From: Actinomycetes bacterium
Lineage (GTDB): Bacteria; Actinomycetota; Actinomycetes; DATJPE01
Reading direction: 5' to 3'
Length of the DNA stretch: 50,877 nt
NCBI GenBank assembly: GCA_035506535.1
Contig: DATJPE010000011.1
Span: 1-50,877, forward strand
The stretch's first letter is position 1. Each line of letters starts with the position of its first letter. Both the position numbers and the translations under genes were made by a program. The notes under the pieces are model-generated. The model searched no databases. It saw only the letters and a list, made by a program, of their open reading frames with translations, and had not been told where the DNA came from. Shown in pieces: positions 27,303-36,849 of this stretch.

Positions 27303-28067
27303 ATGGCCCCCGACGAGCCCAGCGACCCGGCACTGCGCCGCGCGGTCCTGGCGGTCGACGGGCCCTCGGGGTCCGGGAAGTCCAGTGTCTCGCGCGGGGT
27401 GGCCCGTCGCCTTCGCCTTCGCTACCTCGACACCGGGGCGATGTACCGCGCGGTGACGTGGTGGATGCTGGCCAACGGGGTGGACGTCGACGACCCCGAC
27501 TCGGTCGCGTCGCGGGTCGGCGAGATCGGTCTCGAGGTCTCCACCGATCCGGAGCATGCCTCGATCGCGGTGAACGGGACGGATGTGTCGGGTCCCATCA
27601 GGGGGCCCGAGGTGACTGCCGCGGTCAGCGCCGTGAGCGCCGTACCGGCCGTGCGTGCCCGCCTGGTCGATCTGCAGCGAGCCGCCGTAGGCGAGGGCGG
27701 CATCGTCGTCGAGGGACGCGACATCGGGACCGTCGTGCTGCCGGACGCCACGCTCAAGGTCTTCCTCACCGCCCACGAGAGCGTCCGCTCGACCCGTCGA
27801 GCCGATGAGCTGCGGGAGCGCGGGATCCCCGCCCCCGCCGACTCGCTGGAGTCCATCCGGCGCCGAGACCGGCTCGACAGCACCCGAGCCGTGTCCCCCC
27901 TCCAGCGGGCCGAGGACGCCGTGGTCGTGGACGCGACCGACCTCGGGCTGGGCGACGTGATCGACCTCGTGGCTCGACTCCTGCTGGACCGGCTCGCCCG
28001 GCCAGGCGTGGGTTCCGCCCCCGCGGCCCTGGCAACGGGCCAGCAGTGGGTAGCGGGCCAGCAGTGA
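27303..28067 (+). CDS. cmk: Cytidylate kinase
   Basis: This 254-residue enzyme phosphorylates CMP and dCMP. The P-loop is GPSGSGKSS, with [39 protein letters not shown] and [15 protein letters not shown]. The last ~30 residues are a low-complexity tail, partly from a direct repeat GGGCCAGCAGTG at its 3' end. It overlaps der by 4 bp; cmk-der is the standard actinobacterial pair. Confidence 0.95.
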
Positions 28068-29440
28068 GCGAGGAGGACGACAGCGCGACTGGAGACGACG
28101 GCGCGCTTCCGGTCCTCGCCGTCGTCGGACGGCCGAATGTGGGCAAGTCCACGCTCGTGAACCGCGTGCTCGGGCGGCGAGAGGCGGTCGTCGAGGACGT
28201 ACCAGGCGTGACGCGGGACCGGGTCGCCTACGAGGCGAACTGGAACGGACGGGCGTTCACCGTGGTGGACACCGGCGGCTGGGAGCCCGATGCGCAGGGA
28301 CTGGCCGCCACGGTGGCAGCGCAGGCCGAGGTGGCGGTCGCGGCGGCAGACGCGGTGCTGCTCGTGGTCGATGCGACGGTGGGCATCACGGACACCGACG
28401 AGGCGGTCGCCCGGGTCCTGCGACGATCGGCCAAGCCCGTGGTCCTCGCGGCGAACAAGGTCGACGACGCTCGGGGTGAGGCGGAGGCCGCTGCCCTGTG
28501 GAACCTCGGGCTGGGGGAGCCGCACCCGGTGTCGGCCCTGCACGGCAGGGGGAGCGGCGACCTCCTCGACGCCGTGCTCGACGCGCTGCCGGAGGCGCCC
28601 CGGGAGGTCTTCGGGGCCGAGGGCGGGCCGCGGCGGGTGGCGCTCCTCGGCCGGCCCAACGTCGGCAAGTCCAGCCTGCTCAACCGGCTCGCGGGCACCG
28701 AGCGAGCGGTGGTGCACCCGGTCGCCGGGACGACGGTCGACCCGGTGGATGAGATCGTGGAGCTCGGCGGGCGTACCTGGCGCTTCGTCGACACCGCAGG
28801 GATCCGCCGTCGAGCCGACGAGGCGTCTGGCCACGAGTACTACGCGGTGCTCCGCACCCAGGCGGCCCTGGAGAAGGCGGAGGTCGCCATCGTCCTGCTC
28901 GATGCGAGCGAGCCGCTGACCGAGCAGGACGTTCGGATCCTCTCCCTCGTGGTCGACGCGGGGCGCGCCCTCGTCCTGGCTCTCAACAAGTGGGACCTGG
29001 TCGACGAGGAGCGGCGGGTGGCTCTCGACAAGGAGCTGGACCGGGAGCTCGTGCGACTGCCCTGGGTCCCTCGGGTCAACGTGTCCGCCCGCACCGGCCG
29101 CCATGTCGATCGGCTGGTACCGGCACTGGAGAAGGCCCTGGCTGCCTGGGAGCGGCGCATCCCGACGGGCCGGCTCAACGCCGTGCTGGGGGAGATCGTC
29201 GCCGAGACCCCGCCCCCGGTCCGCGGCGGCAAGGCACCGCGCATCCTCTTCGCCACCCAGGCGGGCGTGCGCCCGCCTCGGTTCGTGCTGTTCGCCACCG
29301 GCTTCCTCGAGGCGTCCTACCGCCGCTTCCTCGAGCGCCGCTTCCGGCAGCTCGAGGACTTCACCGGCACCCCGATCGAGATCAGCGTCCGGGTCAGGGA
29401 CAAGCGGGGCGTCAGGGACAAGCGTGGTCGGAGAACCTGA
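28064..29440 (+). CDS. der: Ribosome-assembly GTPase Der (EngA)
   Basis: The 458-residue protein has two tandem G domains: [17 protein letters not shown] and [19 protein letters not shown]-terminal KH-like domain ([21 protein letters not shown]) follows. It acts in 50S subunit assembly. I chose GTG 28064, which overlaps the cmk stop by 4 bp, over GTG 28046, which would sit in a repeat. The protein ends with a duplicated VRDKRG, encoded by a short direct repeat. Confidence 0.95.
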
Positions 29441-29482: not shown

Positions 29483-29556
<74 letters not shown>

Positions 29557-29574
29557 CGGCAGCTCCAGAGTCGC

Positions 29575-29605
29575 CGAGGGCCGGACCCGTGAGGTCCGGC
29601 CCTCG
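29575..29605 (+). terminator. Hairpin terminator after tRNA-Pro
   Basis: A perfect 13-bp GC-rich stem (CGAGGGCCGGACC and complement) encloses the 5-nt loop CGTGA. No T-run follows, as is common for actinobacterial terminators. Confidence 0.8.
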
Positions 29606-29766
29606 ACGCGTCGACGGCGTCCGTTCCGGTGTCACCCCGTATCAAGGCCCGAGCCCGCGTGCTCACCTGTCGGGGAAGATCGTCGGCCGAGGGCGCTCAG
29701 GGTGTCCCGGGAGGGGCGGGGGATGGGACACGCGGACGTGCCCGCGCGGACGACGTGGGCGCTGCC

Positions 29767-31053
29767 ATGAGCGCTGCCTCGGCGCGCGTCGACTCGCAGC
29801 GCTATGACGTGCTCCTGCTCGACGCGGCGAGCCGGCAGAGCCTCGCCACCGCTCGCAGCCTGGGCCGGGCCGGTCTGCGCATCGTCATGGGGGAGTGCTT
29901 CGCCGAGTGCGACCCGCGTCAGCCCGTACCGGGCTTTCGTTCGCGGTACTCCAGCCGCAACCTCGTGCTCCCGAGCTTCGCGAGCGATGCGGACGCGTTC
30001 GCCAACGCGGTCGTCGACTTCGCGGACCGGCACCCCACCGCCGTGGTCCTCCCGGCGAGCGACGGCGCGATCGCCGCGCTGGCGCCGGTGCGGGACGACC
30101 TGGCGGCGCTCGGAGCCCGACTCGCCCTGCCGTCGGACTCCGCGCTGGAGGTGGCGGCGCACAAGGGACGGACCCTCCAGGTCGCGCGCGATCTCGGGAT
30201 CAGCCACCCGAGGACCAGCCACATCCAGCAGCTGGACGATCTCCCCGACCTGCTGAGCGGGTTCGACTTCCCGCTCGTGCTGAAGCCGACCTCGTCCTGG
30301 GTGCGCAAGGCCGTCACGCGCCTGCAGGCCGTCGAGGTCATGAACGAGGCCGAGGCCGTCACCGTGGCGGACTCCTTCCTGGCCGCGGGGGCAGAGGTCC
30401 TCGCGCAGCAGCTGGTCCGTGGCCGGCGCGAGGGCGTCACCTTGTTCATGGTCGACGGGGAGGCCCGCGCGGCGTTCGCGCACCTGGAGCATCGCTGCAG
30501 CCCGGCCCTCGGCGGCGCGTCCGTGGTCCGCGAGAGCATCCCTTTGCCGGCGGACATCTACCGCCCGTCGGTGGAGCTGGTGTCCGCTCTCGGGCTGCAG
30601 GGACTTTGCGAGGTCGAGTACCGCAGAGACGGTGACGGCAGCCCGTTGCTCATGGAGATCAACGCGCGTCTCGCCGGGCCGGTGGAGACCGCTCTTCGTG
30701 CCGGTATCGACTTCCCGCTCATGCTCTGGCGATGGGCGGTGGACGCCCCGGTGGAGCGGGTCAGCGGCTACCGCACCGGCGTGCGGATGCGGTGGTTGCG
30801 CGGAGACATGCGCTGGCTGCGGGACAACTACCGGCGCCGCGGGCGGCCGGACAGCGTCACGGCGACCCAGGCCGTCGGGACATTCCTCGCGGAGTTCGTC
30901 CGGACCCGCCACTACGACGTCCTCGACTGGCGCGACCCCCACCCGTTCCTGGCCGAGCTGCGCATCACCGCGGCCTCGGCCCTCAGCCGTTCGCGGCGAT
31001 CGCCGTCTTCGGTCTCCGATCTCGCTCGGAAGGGAGCAGCACGTGTCATCTGA
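29767..31053 (+). CDS. ATP-grasp ligase of unknown substrate
   Basis: This 428-residue protein resembles carbamoyl-phosphate-synthase-like ATP-grasp enzymes. The N-terminal domain is YDVLLLDAASRQSLATARSLGRAGLRI. The nucleotide-binding Lys lies in FPLVLKPTSSWVRKAV, and the metal ligands are in LCEVEYRRDGDGSPLLMEINARLAGPVE. Such enzymes join a carboxylate to an amine through an acyl phosphate. I chose ATG 29767 where homology begins; the frame is open upstream to 29629. It overlaps the next flavoprotein gene by 11 bp, so the two probably act in one pathway. Product unknown. Confidence 0.82.
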   Translation: MSAASARVDSQRYDVLLLDAASRQSLATARSLGRAGLRIVMGECFAECDPRQPVPGFRSRYSSRNLVLPSFASDADAFANAVVDFADRHPTAVVLPASDGAIAALAPVRDDLAALGARLALPSDSALEVAAHKGRTLQVARDLGISHPRTSHIQQLDDLPDLLSGFDFPLVLKPTSSWVRKAVTRLQAVEVMNEAEAVTVADSFLAAGAEVLAQQLVRGRREGVTLFMVDGEARAAFAHLEHRCSPALGGASVVRESIPLPADIYRPSVELVSALGLQGLCEVEYRRDGDGSPLLMEINARLAGPVETALRAGIDFPLMLWRWAVDAPVERVSGYRTGVRMRWLRGDMRWLRDNYRRRGRPDSVTATQAVGTFLAEFVRTRHYDVLDWRDPHPFLAELRITAASALSRSRRSPSSVSDLARKGAARVI

Positions 31054-32263
31054 CCGCCCGCTCGTCATCGGGGCCGGGCCGTTCGGCCTGTCCGTCTCGG
31101 CGCACCTGCACGCGCTCGGCGTCGACCATCGCATCGTGGGCCGAACGCTGGACACGTGGCGGGCGCACATGCCGAGCGGCATGATGCTTCGCTCCGAACC
31201 CTACGGCTCCGACCTGGCCGCCCCCGTGCCCGGCTACGACGTCGGCGCCTATTCACGCCTGCACGGCCTGGACTACGTCGACCGTCTTGGGCCGCTGTCG
31301 ATCGAGCGATTCCTCGACTACGCGGACTGGTACGTCGAACGCTTCGTGCCTGACGTCGCCGACGTGACGGTCACCGGCGTGACGCCTGTCGACGGCGGCT
31401 TTCGCGTGAGTTTCGCGGAGGAGGCCGACCAGATGTTCGGCTCCGTCGTCGTCGCGACCGGCGTGCTGCCGTACAAGGTCGTCCCGGATCAGCTCGCGAG
31501 CCTGCCGGCCGAGCTGGTCTCGCACACCTCCGACCACCACGACCTCGCCACCTTCCGGGGCCGGTCGGTGGCCGTCGTGGGGGGCGGGCAGTCGGCCCTC
31601 GAGACGGCTGCGCTGCTGCACGAGGCGGGAGCCCAGGTGCACGTCATCGTCCGCGCCCCAGCGCTGAACTGGCTCGAGCCCAACCCTGAGCATCTCAGCG
31701 CGCTCGGTCGGGTCCGGCGCCCGGTGAACAAGCTGTGCGAAGGCTGGCACTGCGCCTTCTGGAACTCCCCGGCAGCCTTCCGCATGCTTCCTCGTGCGGT
31801 TCGGGTCACGAAGGCGCGAACCGTCCTCGGACCGGCCGGGGCGTGGTGGCTCCGCGCGCGGGTGGAGGGGCGGGTCGACGTGCTGACGGGCCATCGGGTC
31901 CTGCGGGCGACGGCGGCAGGAAGCGGCGTCCACCTCGACCTCGGCGGCGGGCAGCGCCAAGGGCTCGACGTGGACCACGTCATCGCGGGAACGGGCTTTC
32001 GCATCGATGTGGGCCGGCTGCCCTTCCTCTCGGTCGAGCGGCTGCGGACCCTGAACGGATACCCGGTGGTGAGCCGGGCCGGGGAGTCGAGCCTTCCGGG
32101 CCTGTACTTCGCCGGCGCGCCGGCGGCGGTGAGTCTCGGACCGTCGGTGCGCTTCATCGCGGGGACGCACACCAGCGCGCGACAGATCGCCCGCTCGGTC
32201 TCCCGGCGAGCTCCGGCGTCACCGGCTCGTCCCGCCGCGGGGATGCTCAGTCGGTCAGGATGA
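31043..32263 (+). CDS. FAD/NAD(P)-dependent monooxygenase-like flavoprotein
   Basis: This 406-residue protein has an FAD fold VIGAGPFGLSVSAHL, the segment SGMMLRSEPYGSDLA, a second Rossmann motif VVGGGQSALETAALL and VIAGTGFRIDVG near the end. The layout is that of class B flavin monooxygenases and amine N-hydroxylases (SidA/IucD relatives). Start GTG 31043 has GGAG eight bases upstream and lies inside the end of the ATP-grasp gene. The substrate is unknown; N- or C-hydroxylation of the ligase substrate or product is an inference. Confidence 0.82.
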   Translation: MSSDRPLVIGAGPFGLSVSAHLHALGVDHRIVGRTLDTWRAHMPSGMMLRSEPYGSDLAAPVPGYDVGAYSRLHGLDYVDRLGPLSIERFLDYADWYVERFVPDVADVTVTGVTPVDGGFRVSFAEEADQMFGSVVVATGVLPYKVVPDQLASLPAELVSHTSDHHDLATFRGRSVAVVGGGQSALETAALLHEAGAQVHVIVRAPALNWLEPNPEHLSALGRVRRPVNKLCEGWHCAFWNSPAAFRMLPRAVRVTKARTVLGPAGAWWLRARVEGRVDVLTGHRVLRATAAGSGVHLDLGGGQRQGLDVDHVIAGTGFRIDVGRLPFLSVERLRTLNGYPVVSRAGESSLPGLYFAGAPAAVSLGPSVRFIAGTHTSARQIARSVSRRAPASPARPAAGMLSRSG

Positions 32264-32471
32264 CGTAGAGGCCTGTGGCGATGGCGAGGACGACGAGGGC
32301 GAAGCACACGGCCGCGCCGGTCAGCCGGACCACACGGGTCACCGGTGGAGCGTCCTGGGCCGAGGAGACCCCGACCAGGCCGAGCGCGAAGAACACGACG
32401 ATGCCGACTCCGCAGACCAGGCCGCCCAGGAGGGCCTGACTCAGTGCGCTGACGTTCACCCACTCAGACAT
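32247..32471 (-). CDS. Small two-helix membrane protein downstream of Pit
   Basis: The 74-residue protein has two hydrophobic segments (ALLGGLVCGVGIVVFFALGLVGV and LTGAAVCFALVVLAIATGLYVIL). Start ATG 32471 overlaps the end of the Pit gene by 8 bp, so translation is probably coupled. The 3' end overlaps the convergent flavoprotein gene by 17 bp. No known domain; likely an accessory subunit of the transporter. Confidence 0.72.
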   Translation of the reverse strand: MSEWVNVSALSQALLGGLVCGVGIVVFFALGLVGVSSAQDAPPVTRVVRLTGAAVCFALVVLAIATGLYVILTD

Positions 32472-33621
32472 TGGCGTATGGCTCCCGGGCGTCGGGGAGC
32501 GGCCGGTCGGCGGTCTCGGGCGCGTTGACGTTCGAGGCGTTGACCGGTGCCTTGCGGGCCGCGCGGAAGATGAGTCCAGCCGCGAGGATCGACAGCGCGA
32601 AGACGACCAGGACGCCGGCGCTGCCCCCGATCGCGGTCGCGAGCCGCCAGGCGAGAGCCCCCACCAGAGCAGCGGACGGCAGCGTGATGACCCACGCCGT
32701 GACCACCCGTCCGGCGACGCCCCAGTGGACCCCCGCGACCCGGCGGCCGACCCCTGAGCCGACGACGCTCCCGGTGACGACCTGCGTGGTGGAGAGGGGG
32801 TAGCCGAAGTGGGTGGAGGCGAGGATCACGGCTGTCGCCGAGGTGGACGAGGCGAACCCCTGGGGAGTCTCGATGTGGGTCAGCCGGTGCCCGACGGTCC
32901 GGATGATGCGAAACCCTCCGGTGGCCGTACCGATCGCGATGGCGAGCGCACACGAGAGCACCACCCACTCGGGGATGCCGGCGTTCGGCGAGATGGTCCC
33001 GTTCGCGATGAGCGCCAGGGTGATCACGCCCATCGTCTTCTGCGCGTCGTTGGTCCCGTGGGCCAGAGCGAGCAGCGACGCCGACCCGATCTGTCCGATC
33101 TTGAACCCGGCCTCGCGGACCTGGGTGCGCACGCCCCGGATGAGGACGTACACGGCCAGCGTCGCGATGCCCGCGATCCCGGCGGCAGCGACCGGCGCGA
33201 GGACGCCGGGCACGATCACCTTGGACACCAGGCCGTGCACCTGGATTGCGTTGACGCCACCGGCGATGAACGCGGCGCCTACGACACCGCCGATCAGCGC
33301 GTGGGAGGAGCTGGACGGGAAGCCGAGGTACCAGGTCACGAGGTTCCACATGATGGCGCCGACGAGACCGCAGAACACGACGGTCAGGGTGACCGAACCG
33401 GTGTTGACGATGCCCTTGGCGATCGTCGCCGCCACCGAGAGGGACAGCAGCGCACCGACGAAGTTGAGCGCGCCGGCCATCAAGACGGCGGCCCGTGGCC
33501 GCATCGCCCCCGTGGCGATCGATGTTGCGACGGCGTTCGCGGTGTCGTGGAAGCCGTTGGTGAAGTCGAATCCGAGCGCCATGAGGACGGTAAGGGCCAG
33601 CACGACGTCATCGGCGCTCAC
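32464..33621 (-). CDS. pitA: Low-affinity inorganic phosphate transporter, PiT family
   Basis: This 385-residue polytopic protein has about ten helices and the two PiT signature repeats: GFDFTNGFHDTANAVATSIATG near the N-terminus and ALAHGTNDAQKTMGV in the middle, plus GFPSSSSHAL and GYPLSTTQV. It imports metal-phosphate with protons. Start GTG 33621; GTG 33630 is also possible. The usual DUF47/PhoU-like partner gene is absent on both sides. Its promoter lies in the ~135-bp divergent gap. Confidence 0.92.
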   Translation of the reverse strand: MSADDVVLALTVLMALGFDFTNGFHDTANAVATSIATGAMRPRAAVLMAGALNFVGALLSLSVAATIAKGIVNTGSVTLTVVFCGLVGAIMWNLVTWYLGFPSSSSHALIGGVVGAAFIAGGVNAIQVHGLVSKVIVPGVLAPVAAAGIAGIATLAVYVLIRGVRTQVREAGFKIGQIGSASLLALAHGTNDAQKTMGVITLALIANGTISPNAGIPEWVVLSCALAIAIGTATGGFRIIRTVGHRLTHIETPQGFASSTSATAVILASTHFGYPLSTTQVVTGSVVGSGVGRRVAGVHWGVAGRVVTAWVITLPSAALVGALAWRLATAIGGSAGVLVVFALSILAAGLIFRAARKAPVNASNVNAPETADRPLPDAREPYANV

Positions 33622-33757
33622 AGTGATCACTATGGCATGCGCCTCCGTGGCCACGAGGGCCAGAAGTCCCGACTCGTTGGGTAGCCTCGAGGAGGAACCG
33701 GGACGATCGCCGGACCGCGAGTGGAGGACCCAGGGCGTGGAGGTCCAGGAGACGCAC

Positions 33758-34354
33758 GTGCAGACGACGCGCGTCCTCACCGTCCCTAACGCCTTGTCCC
33801 TCCTGCGCCTGCTCGCCATCCCGCTGTTCCTCTGGCTGGTCCTCGTCCCGGAGGCGGACGGGTGGGCGGCCCTCGTCCTCGTCCTCAGCGCGTTCACCGA
33901 CTACCTCGACGGCTACCTGGCCCGGCGCTGGCACCAGATCTCCCGGGTGGGGCAGCTGCTGGACCCCGTCGTCGACCGGCTCTGCACGGTCGCGACCTTG
34001 CTCGGGCTGGCGATCCGCGACATTGTGCCCTGGTGGTTCGTGGCTCTCCTGGTCTTGCGTGACGTCATGCTGGTCGCCACCGGCCCGACGTTGCGCCGCC
34101 TCGGCCTGACCGCCCTGCCGGTCCACTTCCTGGGCAAGGCGGCGACCTTCAACCTGCTGATCTCGTTCCCGCTCCTGCTGCTGGGCGCCGGGTCAGGGAC
34201 GGCGGCGGCGATCGCCTCGACGTTCGGGTGGGCCTTCGCTATCTGGGGTGCCGCGCTGTACTGGTGGTCGGGCCTGCTCTACGTCGAGCAGGTGCGCCGG
34301 CTCGCCGGCGGACCCGCCCGCGTGGTCGGGGCCCCGACGGGAGGTGTCGCGTGA
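33758..34354 (+). CDS. CDP-alcohol phosphatidyltransferase
   Basis: A ~198-residue membrane enzyme has the full active-site pattern DX2DGX2ARX8GX3DX3D in [20 protein letters not shown] and the following LDPVVDR. It could be a phosphatidylglycerophosphate, phosphatidylinositol-phosphate or cardiolipin synthase; I cannot tell which. GTG 33758 has AGGAG six bases upstream; GTG 33737 is the alternative. It overlaps the next gene by 4 bp. Confidence 0.88.
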
Positions 34355-36849
34355 AGGCCGTCGTGATGGCCGGCGGCGAGGGGACCAGGCTGCGCCCGAT
34401 GACGGCGACGCTGCCCAAGCCGCTGCTGCCCGTGGTGCACAAACCGATCATGGAGCACGTCCTGGACCTGCTGAAGCGGCACGGGATGACCGACACCGTC
34501 GTCACCGTGCAGTTCCTCGCCTCGATCCTGCGCAACTACTTCGGGGACGGCGAGGAGCTCGGCATGCGGCTGACCTACTCCTCGGAGGAGACGCCGCTCG
34601 GGACGGCGGGCAGCGTCAAGCGGGCCGAGGCCGAGCTGCGTGACGGCAGCTTCCTCGTGATAAGCGGGGACGCGCTCACCGACATCGACCTGTCCGCCCT
34701 CGTGGACTTCCACCGCACCAAGGGTGCGATGGTCACGGTGTGTCTGACCCGCGTGGCCGACCCGGTGGAGTTCGGGATCACCATCACCGACGACGAGCAC
34801 CGGGTGCAGCGCTTCCTCGAGAAGCCGTCATGGGGGCAGGTGTTCAGCGACACCGTCAACACCGGTATCTACGTCATGGAGCCTGAGGTCTTCGACCACG
34901 TCCCGGAGGGTCAGGTGGTCGACTGGTCGGGCGACGTCTTCCCGAAGCTGCTGGCCGACGGGCTGCCGGTGCTCGGTCACGTCAGCGACGGGTACTGGGA
35001 GGACGTGGGGACTCTCGAGTCCTACCTGCGCGCCCAGGTCGACGTCCTCCTCGGCAAGGTCAAGGTCGTCATGCCCGGTTTCGAGGTCTCGCCCGGGGTG
35101 TGGGTGGGTGAGGGCTCGGACGTCGACCCGGACGCGACGGTCAAGGGGCCGGTGTACATCGGCGACTACTCCAAGGTCGAGGCGGGCGCCGAGCTGCGCG
35201 AGTTCACCGTCCTGGGTAGCAACGTCGTCGTGCGCGAGGGTGCCTTCGTCCATCGCAGCGTCATCCACGACAACGTCTTCGTGGGACCGCACACCAACAT
35301 CCGCGGCTGCGTCGTCGGCAAGGGGACGGACCTGATGCGCGCCAGCCGGGTCGAGGAAGGCGCGGTCATCGGCGACGAGTGCGTCGTCGAGGAGGAGGCG
35401 ATCATCTCGCCCGGGGTGAAGGTCTACCCCTTCAAGACGATCGAGGCCGGCGCTGTCGTCCACGACAGCGTGATCTGGGAGAGCCGGGGCACCCGCTCCC
35501 TGTTCGGGCCACGCGGGATGTCGGGCATCGTCAACGTCGAGATCACTCCGGAGCTGGTCGTGCGGCTCGTCTCGGCGTACGCCTCGACCCTGCGCAAAGG
35601 CGCGGCGGTGACGGTGAGCCGGGACCACTCCCGCGCCGCGCGCGCCCTCAAGCGGGCCGCGATCGCGGCTTTCAACGCCTCCGCGATAGACGTCCGTGAC
35701 CTCGAGGTCGCCCCGCCACAGGTCACCAGGCTCACCGCGGTCCGCCAGGCCGGAGCCGGTGGCCTGATGATCCGGACCACGCCCGGCGTCCCCGACTCCG
35801 TCGACATCGTCTTCCTCGACGACACCGGCGCGGACCTCGCCCCCTCGGCTCAGCGCAAGGTCGAGCGCATCCTGCAGCGGGGGGAGTTCCGGCGCGCCTT
35901 CCCGGGCGAGATCGGGGACCTGTCCTTCCCGCCTCGTGCCGTGGAGTCCTACGTCCAGCACCTGACCGGGGCCGTCGACATCTCGGGTATCGGGGCCGGT
36001 GAGGTCAAGCTCGTCGTCGACTGCGCGGGTGGGGTTGCGTCGTTGATTCTTCCGACGCTGCTCAGCCGGGTGGGGGTCGACGTCCTCACCGTCAACGCCC
36101 GCCTCGACGACGCCAACCCGACCGAGAGCCCGGCCGAGCGCCGCGAGGCCCTAGCCCGTCTCGGGGGGCTGGTGGCCTCCTCCCGAGCCGCCTTCGGAGT
36201 CCGCTTCGACCCGGTCGGCGAGCGGCTGAGCATCGTCGACGACACCGGACACCCGATCGAGGACGAACGGGCGCTGCTGGTCTTCCTCGACCTCATCGCT
36301 GCCGAGCGGCGCGGCAAGAAGGTCGCGCTGCCTGTGAGCACGACGCGGGTGGCGGAGCAGGTGTGCCGCTTCCATGGCGTCGAGGTCGAGTGGGTGACCA
36401 CCGCCCCGGACTCCATCGTCCGCGCCGCGGCATCGCCCGACCTCGCCGGCGCGGGGGACGGACGAGGCGGGTACGTGGTCCCCGAGGCGAGCCCGGCCAT
36501 CGACGGCAACGCCGCGTTCCTTCGCCTGCTCGGCCTGGTCGCGCGCACCCGCCTGACCCTCTCCCAGATCGAGGCCCGGATCCCCACGGCGCACGTCCTT
36601 CGCGCCGACGTGGAGACCCCGTGGGCGGCGAAGGGCCAGGTGATGCGCTCTGTCATCGAGGCCGCCGGCGGGCGCGGTCTCGACACCACCGACGGGGTCC
36701 GGGTCGTGGAGGACGACGGCCGCTGGGCGCTCGTCCTGCCCGACCCGTCGCAGGCGATCACCCACCTGTGGGCCGAGGGCGGCACCGAGGACGAGGCGGC
36801 CGACCTGCTCCAGGAGTGGGCGAGCGTCGTCGCGCGGGCCGGCCGGTAG
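34351..36849 (+). CDS. Mannose-1-phosphate guanylyltransferase-like enzyme fused to a degenerate phosphomannomutase domain
   Basis: This 832-residue fusion protein starts at GTG 34351 after GGGAGG. Residues 1-235 are a sugar nucleotidyltransferase ([26 protein letters not shown]). Residues ~250-370 are left-handed beta-helix hexapeptide repeats. Residues ~380-832 follow the phosphohexomutase fold, but the four catalytic loops are changed: RTTPGVP replaces TASHNP near 475, DPVGER replaces DGDGDR at 620-625, PEASPAIDG sits at the sugar loop (711-719), and PDPSQA replaces RxSGTEP (797-802). The second half is therefore probably regulatory or structural. Homologues of this length are common in actinomycetes. 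Confidence 0.88.

Follow-up and report, generated by a model that had tools for sequence, protein, structure and literature searches.

The locus analyzed here raises the question of what an ATP-grasp ligase and a flavoprotein do together when their genes overlap and stand beside a tRNA gene. The window, that is, the whole 50,877-nt stretch of DNA analyzed, comes from an Actinomycetes bacterium. The initial annotation had described the two genes as joined by an 11-bp overlap and placed between der/tRNA-Pro and a phosphate transporter gene. The overlap proved to be exact, and the location was confirmed by the coordinates and by a match of the transporter to PHO4. The features are as follows.

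28064-29440: der (EngA with a KH-like domain), upstream of gene A
29483-29557: tRNA-Pro(ggg), upstream of gene A
29576..29604, plus strand: hairpin between tRNA-Pro and gene A, with a 12-bp perfect stem and without a T run
29767..31053, plus strand: gene A, ATG start, TGA stop, 428 aa, predicted ATP-grasp ligase
31043..31053, plus strand: overlap of genes A and B, exactly 11 bp in different frames, read directly from the sequence
31043..32263, plus strand: gene B, GTG start, 406 aa, predicted FAD/NADPH flavoprotein of the N-hydroxylase/FMO type
32464-33654, minus strand: PHO4-family phosphate transporter gene, downstream of B and convergent

An in-frame GTG at 29755, 12 bases 5′ of the ATG, is a possible alternative start of gene A, and a Shine-Dalgarno-like AAGGGAG lies approximately 8 nt upstream of the gene B GTG at 31043. 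The hairpin had an MFE z-score of -3.4, and none of 200 shuffles folded equally well. Because this terminator-like structure lies between tRNA-Pro and gene A, it suggests that the pair is transcribed separately from the tRNA. At the other end, a 74-aa hydrophobic ORF, probably encoding a membrane protein (32247-32471, minus strand; without a Pfam match), adjoins the end of the phosphate transporter gene; it is convergent with B and overlaps its 3′ end by approximately 17 bp. Further downstream, genes for a CDP-alcohol phosphatidyltransferase and then an 832-aa NDP-sugar pyrophosphorylase/phosphomannomutase fusion follow (33677-36849, plus strand). The earlier statement that no other pathway gene stands beside the pair needs a correction here, since these genes are located 1.4 to 4.6 kb downstream; neither belongs to the conserved unit.

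The position next to a tRNA gene, away from any polysaccharide cluster, and the fact that the closest homologues are only about 51 to 63% identical could indicate a relic, or a recent stray tRNA-associated mobile insert without present function. We consider this extremely unlikely, since both frames are intact, the catalytic residues are kept, and the G+C content and codon usage of the pair match those of the neighboring genes, with no foreign signature. Furthermore, no second copy of the tRNA-Pro 3′ end was found elsewhere in the window. Given this lack of a repeat and the ordinary composition, the idea of a mobile island was rejected.

The product of gene A matched PF15632 (ATPgrasp_Ter) above the Pfam cut-off. 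Among its homologues, 10 of 43 matched PF15632 and 2 of 43 matched PF14397, the "sugar-transfer associated ATP-grasp" family; most were closer to carbamoyl-phosphate-synthase-like domains. An AlphaFold2 model of A (pLDDT 89, with lower confidence in the C-terminal part beyond residue 345) revealed an ATP-grasp fold, and the ATP lysine, the acidic/Asn metal residues and the Arg near the C-terminal strand that mark ATP-grasp ligases were all present. Across 43 to 48 homologues, residues K173, Q214, G279, N299 and R301 were invariant or nearly so; for K173, Q214, N299 and R301, conservation was complete or at least 90%. By both sequence and fold, the nearest solved relative was the L-amino-acid ligase BL00235 (3vot), which together with RizA (4wd3) gave the best matches. 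Other fold matches were 2pn1, carbamoyl phosphate synthase (CPSase) and biotin carboxylase, and carbamoyl-phosphate-synthase-like proteins were also found among the sequence and structure matches. BL00235 and RizA catalyze ATP-dependent amide formation, which is presumed for A likewise, but A is only about 20% identical to them or less, and its relatives occur in a polysaccharide context. With its catalytic residues kept and its likeness to amide ligases, A resembles an amide-forming ATP-grasp ligase and is regarded as a putative one. Although the PF15632 cut-off was reached, a role connected with a Ter (tellurite) operon receives no support from the neighbors: Ter-operon families were absent from the 25 commonest neighbor families and from the part of the window genes that was scanned.

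The product of gene B matched Pyr_redox_2/3 and Lys_Orn_oxgnase above the Pfam cut-offs. Its PF13434 match spanned profile positions 95 to 229 of 339 only, which is the NADPH part, and did not extend to the full length with the substrate region and the C-terminal motif. The motif order of this type (FAD GxGPxG, NADPH GxGxSA, ATG(Y/F)) and the overall fold were present. Alignment with Streptomyces PF13434 N-hydroxylases revealed a common FAD motif, GxGQSAxE, the W/GM/DP N-terminal substrate region and the ATG motif, along with one deleted loop and a differing C-terminal end. B lacks the LVT stretch (3 residues) in the substrate region, and its C-terminal region reads GPxxRF...G, in contrast to N...PDLG in the PF13434 N-hydroxylases. 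The AlphaFold2 model of B (pLDDT 94.6) superposed over most residues on the N-hydroxylases PvdA, SidA and SsDesB, with TM-scores of 0.70 to 0.75 (0.75 to PvdA and SsDesB, query normalized). With these three proteins B has a like fold and the GxGP FAD, GxGQSAxE NADPH and ATG motifs in common, at 20% identity or less. DesB is an N-hydroxylating monooxygenase belonging to PF13434 (PMC8009421). We did not assign B to PF13434; judging by motifs and model, it probably only works like a member of this family. In line with the classes given in the initial annotation, matches, motifs and folds point to an ATP-grasp ligase and an N-hydroxylase-like flavoprotein.

The fold search itself raised another explanation for B. 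The best E-value was obtained with YpdA (7a76), the profile matches were mostly to thioredoxin and ferredoxin reductases, within the NADPH domain, and the sequence likeness was strongest in this domain, which is common to thioredoxin-reductase-like proteins. B could thus be a YpdA/thioredoxin-reductase-like enzyme, an NADPH-dependent reductase or dehydrogenase. It would then deliver reducing power or act as the reductase of a sugar intermediate, and A would be the sole tailoring enzyme. However, the query-normalized TM-score to YpdA was 0.62, lower than those to PvdA and SsDesB, and the alignment with N-hydroxylases includes the W/GM/DP region as well as the ATG motif. Moreover, among 53 B homologues, no invariant or near-invariant cysteine was detected. 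A reductase is therefore improbable in our view, and a disulfide reductase of the YpdA/thioredoxin-reductase kind was rejected for lack of conserved redox cysteines. The MSMEG_0569 flavoprotein family (TIGR04046) was also rejected for B (55.8 bits versus a curated cut-off of 498), and scores for TIGR04018 and TIGR01292 were far below the cut-offs. Neither A nor B of the window passed any named NCBIfam cut-off, and their homologues, compared with NCBIfam by best E-values only, were similarly weak.

The initial annotation had proposed looking for the two families as neighbors across actinobacteria. B homologues were collected with an alignment query of genome contigs; the closest ones were 53 to 63% identical, the next about 47% or less. 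An A homologue was located at most 3.5 kb away in 54 of the best 80 B loci. When only B loci with flanks of 3 kb or more to each side were considered, A was found within 3.5 kb in 42 of 59 and within 350 bp in 36. The density of the A family was 0.109 per kb within 3.5 kb of B and 0.0065 per kb further out, a background 17 times lower. When 395 genomes of the class were drawn, A was located within 3.5 kb at 41 of the 46 B places; conversely, 41 of the 49 strong A places were paired with B. Of the pairs, 37 lay within 400 bp. Both genes were present in 38 of these genomes, A only in 5, B only in 2 and neither in 350. The genes are thus strongly linked in relatives. The Fisher p value of the class sample is inflated by kinship, as a single genus-level group accounts for most of these genomes, and the occurrence of the pair across phyla is therefore more telling. 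Indeed, it was detected in Mesorhizobium, Bradyrhizobium and Granulicella, and also in further Acidobacteriota, Alphaproteobacteria and Noviherbaspirillum, so that the linkage extends over Actinomycetota, Acidobacteriota and Pseudomonadota.

In the 54 paired loci, the order was A-B in 30 and B-A in 10, and the genes were on opposite strands in 14; all four relative orientations occur and the adjacency persists. The distance matrices of A and B were correlated (r 0.68; 0 of 2000 permutations). In Bradyrhizobium the genes overlap by 4 bp, and in the relative G018 they meet in a TGATG junction. As read from such junctions, translational coupling of A and B is often present and recurs in relatives. 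With frames and adjacency conserved in relatives, we conclude that the A-B pairing is real and beyond chance. Approximately a quarter of the B homologues with sufficient flanks, including one on a Streptomyces mirabilis plasmid, had no A neighbor; therefore, B can work without A nearby. In an Actinomycetospora locus (L047:8000-11194), A and B share a single open frame without interruption, which may be a true fusion or result from a frameshift that hides a stop. It was not counted as a natural fusion, since the linker resembles out-of-frame sequence.

The surroundings of the pair in relatives bear on its role. Among 108 genes adjoining the pair, group-1/4 glycosyltransferases (GT4) were represented 15 times, Bac_transf 10 times, Polysacc_deac 9 times and UDP-glucose dehydrogenase 6 times, the last in a minority of loci only. 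Among 73 genes located 6.5 to 10 kb away, regulators were the leading group, Bac_transf was found in 2 of 73, and the GT4 families were absent from the top 25. All four groups, of which Bac_transf represents the undecaprenyl-phosphate sugar transferases, are enriched beside the pair. These counts were made with a simple gene caller in an Actinomycetes-rich sample, and the far genes come from a subset of the loci used for the near genes. For the closest homologues (B 61 to 63% identical), the location is within an exopolysaccharide cluster or next to one: the clusters that L015-L017, the closest relatives, contain or adjoin have genes for Wzz, AsnB, heparinase II/III, polysaccharide pyruvyl transferase, dTDP-sugar isomerase, Wzy-like proteins and glycosyltransferases. 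Such a location, expected for exopolysaccharide tailoring, was found in many relatives, the closest ones included, but not in the window, where the pair is outside any polysaccharide cluster. Overall, the pair occurs in many unrelated soil bacteria, in which clusters for surface sugar polymers are its usual place. In L012 and some other loci the polysaccharide context was weak.

A and B could instead make a free small molecule, such as an N-hydroxylated dipeptide or amide of hydroxamate-like type, in which case the polysaccharide context in relatives would be incidental or regulatory. This would fit the dipeptide-forming L-amino-acid ligases as nearest to A in sequence and fold, the resemblance of B to siderophore N-hydroxylases, and the fact that the window and some plasmids have no polysaccharide gene directly beside the pair. 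We nevertheless judge it unlikely, because polysaccharide genes are enriched beside the pair as compared with genes 6.5 to 10 kb off, and because transporter, siderophore synthetase and carrier protein are absent from the top neighbor families. A hydroxamate siderophore cluster was rejected, since neither a siderophore synthetase nor an acyltransferase was found beside B among the called window neighbors, which were inspected, or among the top neighbor families.

We consider it probable that the two enzymes A and B make up a conserved module for the tailoring of a cell-surface polysaccharide or exopolysaccharide, or a lipid- or nucleotide-linked precursor thereof. Because the homologues recur in polysaccharide-biosynthesis clusters, the proposed role shifts from the small amide metabolite suggested earlier, which is now the less likely product, to the modification of a polysaccharide or of one of its building blocks. 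To this extent, the homologues are common parts of a known kind of cluster. The two-gene unit itself, which the initial annotation did not recognize as a described pathway, has no curated named family, and our literature searches found no description of the pair in polysaccharide clusters, with an earlier mention in a 2009 amidoligase survey being possible.

The module is best read as an amide ligase plus an N- or C-oxygenase, a chemistry that we infer by analogy with established ATP-grasp and group B flavoprotein reactions. A would use ATP to convert a carboxylate, likely that of an amino acid or of a uronic acid within the sugar chain, to an acyl-phosphate and would then join it to an amine, yielding an amide. 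B would use NADPH and O2 to form a C4a-hydroperoxyflavin and may oxygenate this substituent, either before ligation or after it, at the amine or at another electron-rich or soft site. A more specific proposal, which we regard as very unlikely, is that an amine hydroxylated by B is coupled by A to the carboxylate of a uronic or amino acid, so that hydroxamate-like, metal-binding N-oxygenated amides are put on a secreted polysaccharide. If true, this would mean a metal-chelating exopolymer that is widespread in soil bacteria.

The best precedent for A in a polysaccharide setting, by analogy, is Cj1438C, the ATP-grasp domain of the Campylobacter jejuni HS:2 capsule enzyme Cj1438. This C-terminal amidoligase amidates glucuronic acid, forming an amide on the C6 carboxylate in the growing chain (PMC11800379). 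Cj1438, like the relatives of A, is encoded in a polysaccharide cluster, and both are ATP-grasp ligases. By its description, Cj1438 differs in being a TupA-like ATP-grasp protein fused to a glycosyltransferase, and no flavoprotein partner is reported in the passages considered. The pair is best read as a polysaccharide-decorating kind of ATP-grasp ligase with a distinctive flavoprotein partner.

In the source genome, the pair is single copy, and contigs C41 and C73 carry the polysaccharide genes. Those on C73 form a cluster, from which the pair is absent, with genes of the GT4, Wzy and acyltransferase types and two that are GH26-like. No homologue of the heparinase of the L015 cluster was found in the source genome, and therefore an L015-type cluster is not simply located elsewhere in it. 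Since GH26-like genes of the C73 type occur close to B in eight loci, the lone pair probably serves the C73 cluster.

Polymer decorations influence adhesion, desiccation tolerance, metal binding and host recognition. As a recurring unit in three phyla with no named family, the pair may stand for an uncharacterized exopolysaccharide decoration, and in culturable Streptomyces and Bradyrhizobium it would offer a simple genetic handle on the polymer.

Two further observations concern the genes next to the pair in relatives. In many actinomycete loci (L021, L026, L030, L049, L069 and similar ones), two genes of approximately 1.4 and 1.15 kb directly follow B in the same direction, suggesting a longer conserved operon. 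In G018, the pair is adjoined by a gene (L007:10828-12273, minus strand) for a protein predicted to be secreted, which contains long repeats of GGGHSTPP and HGDSG and ends in an LPxTG-like sequence.
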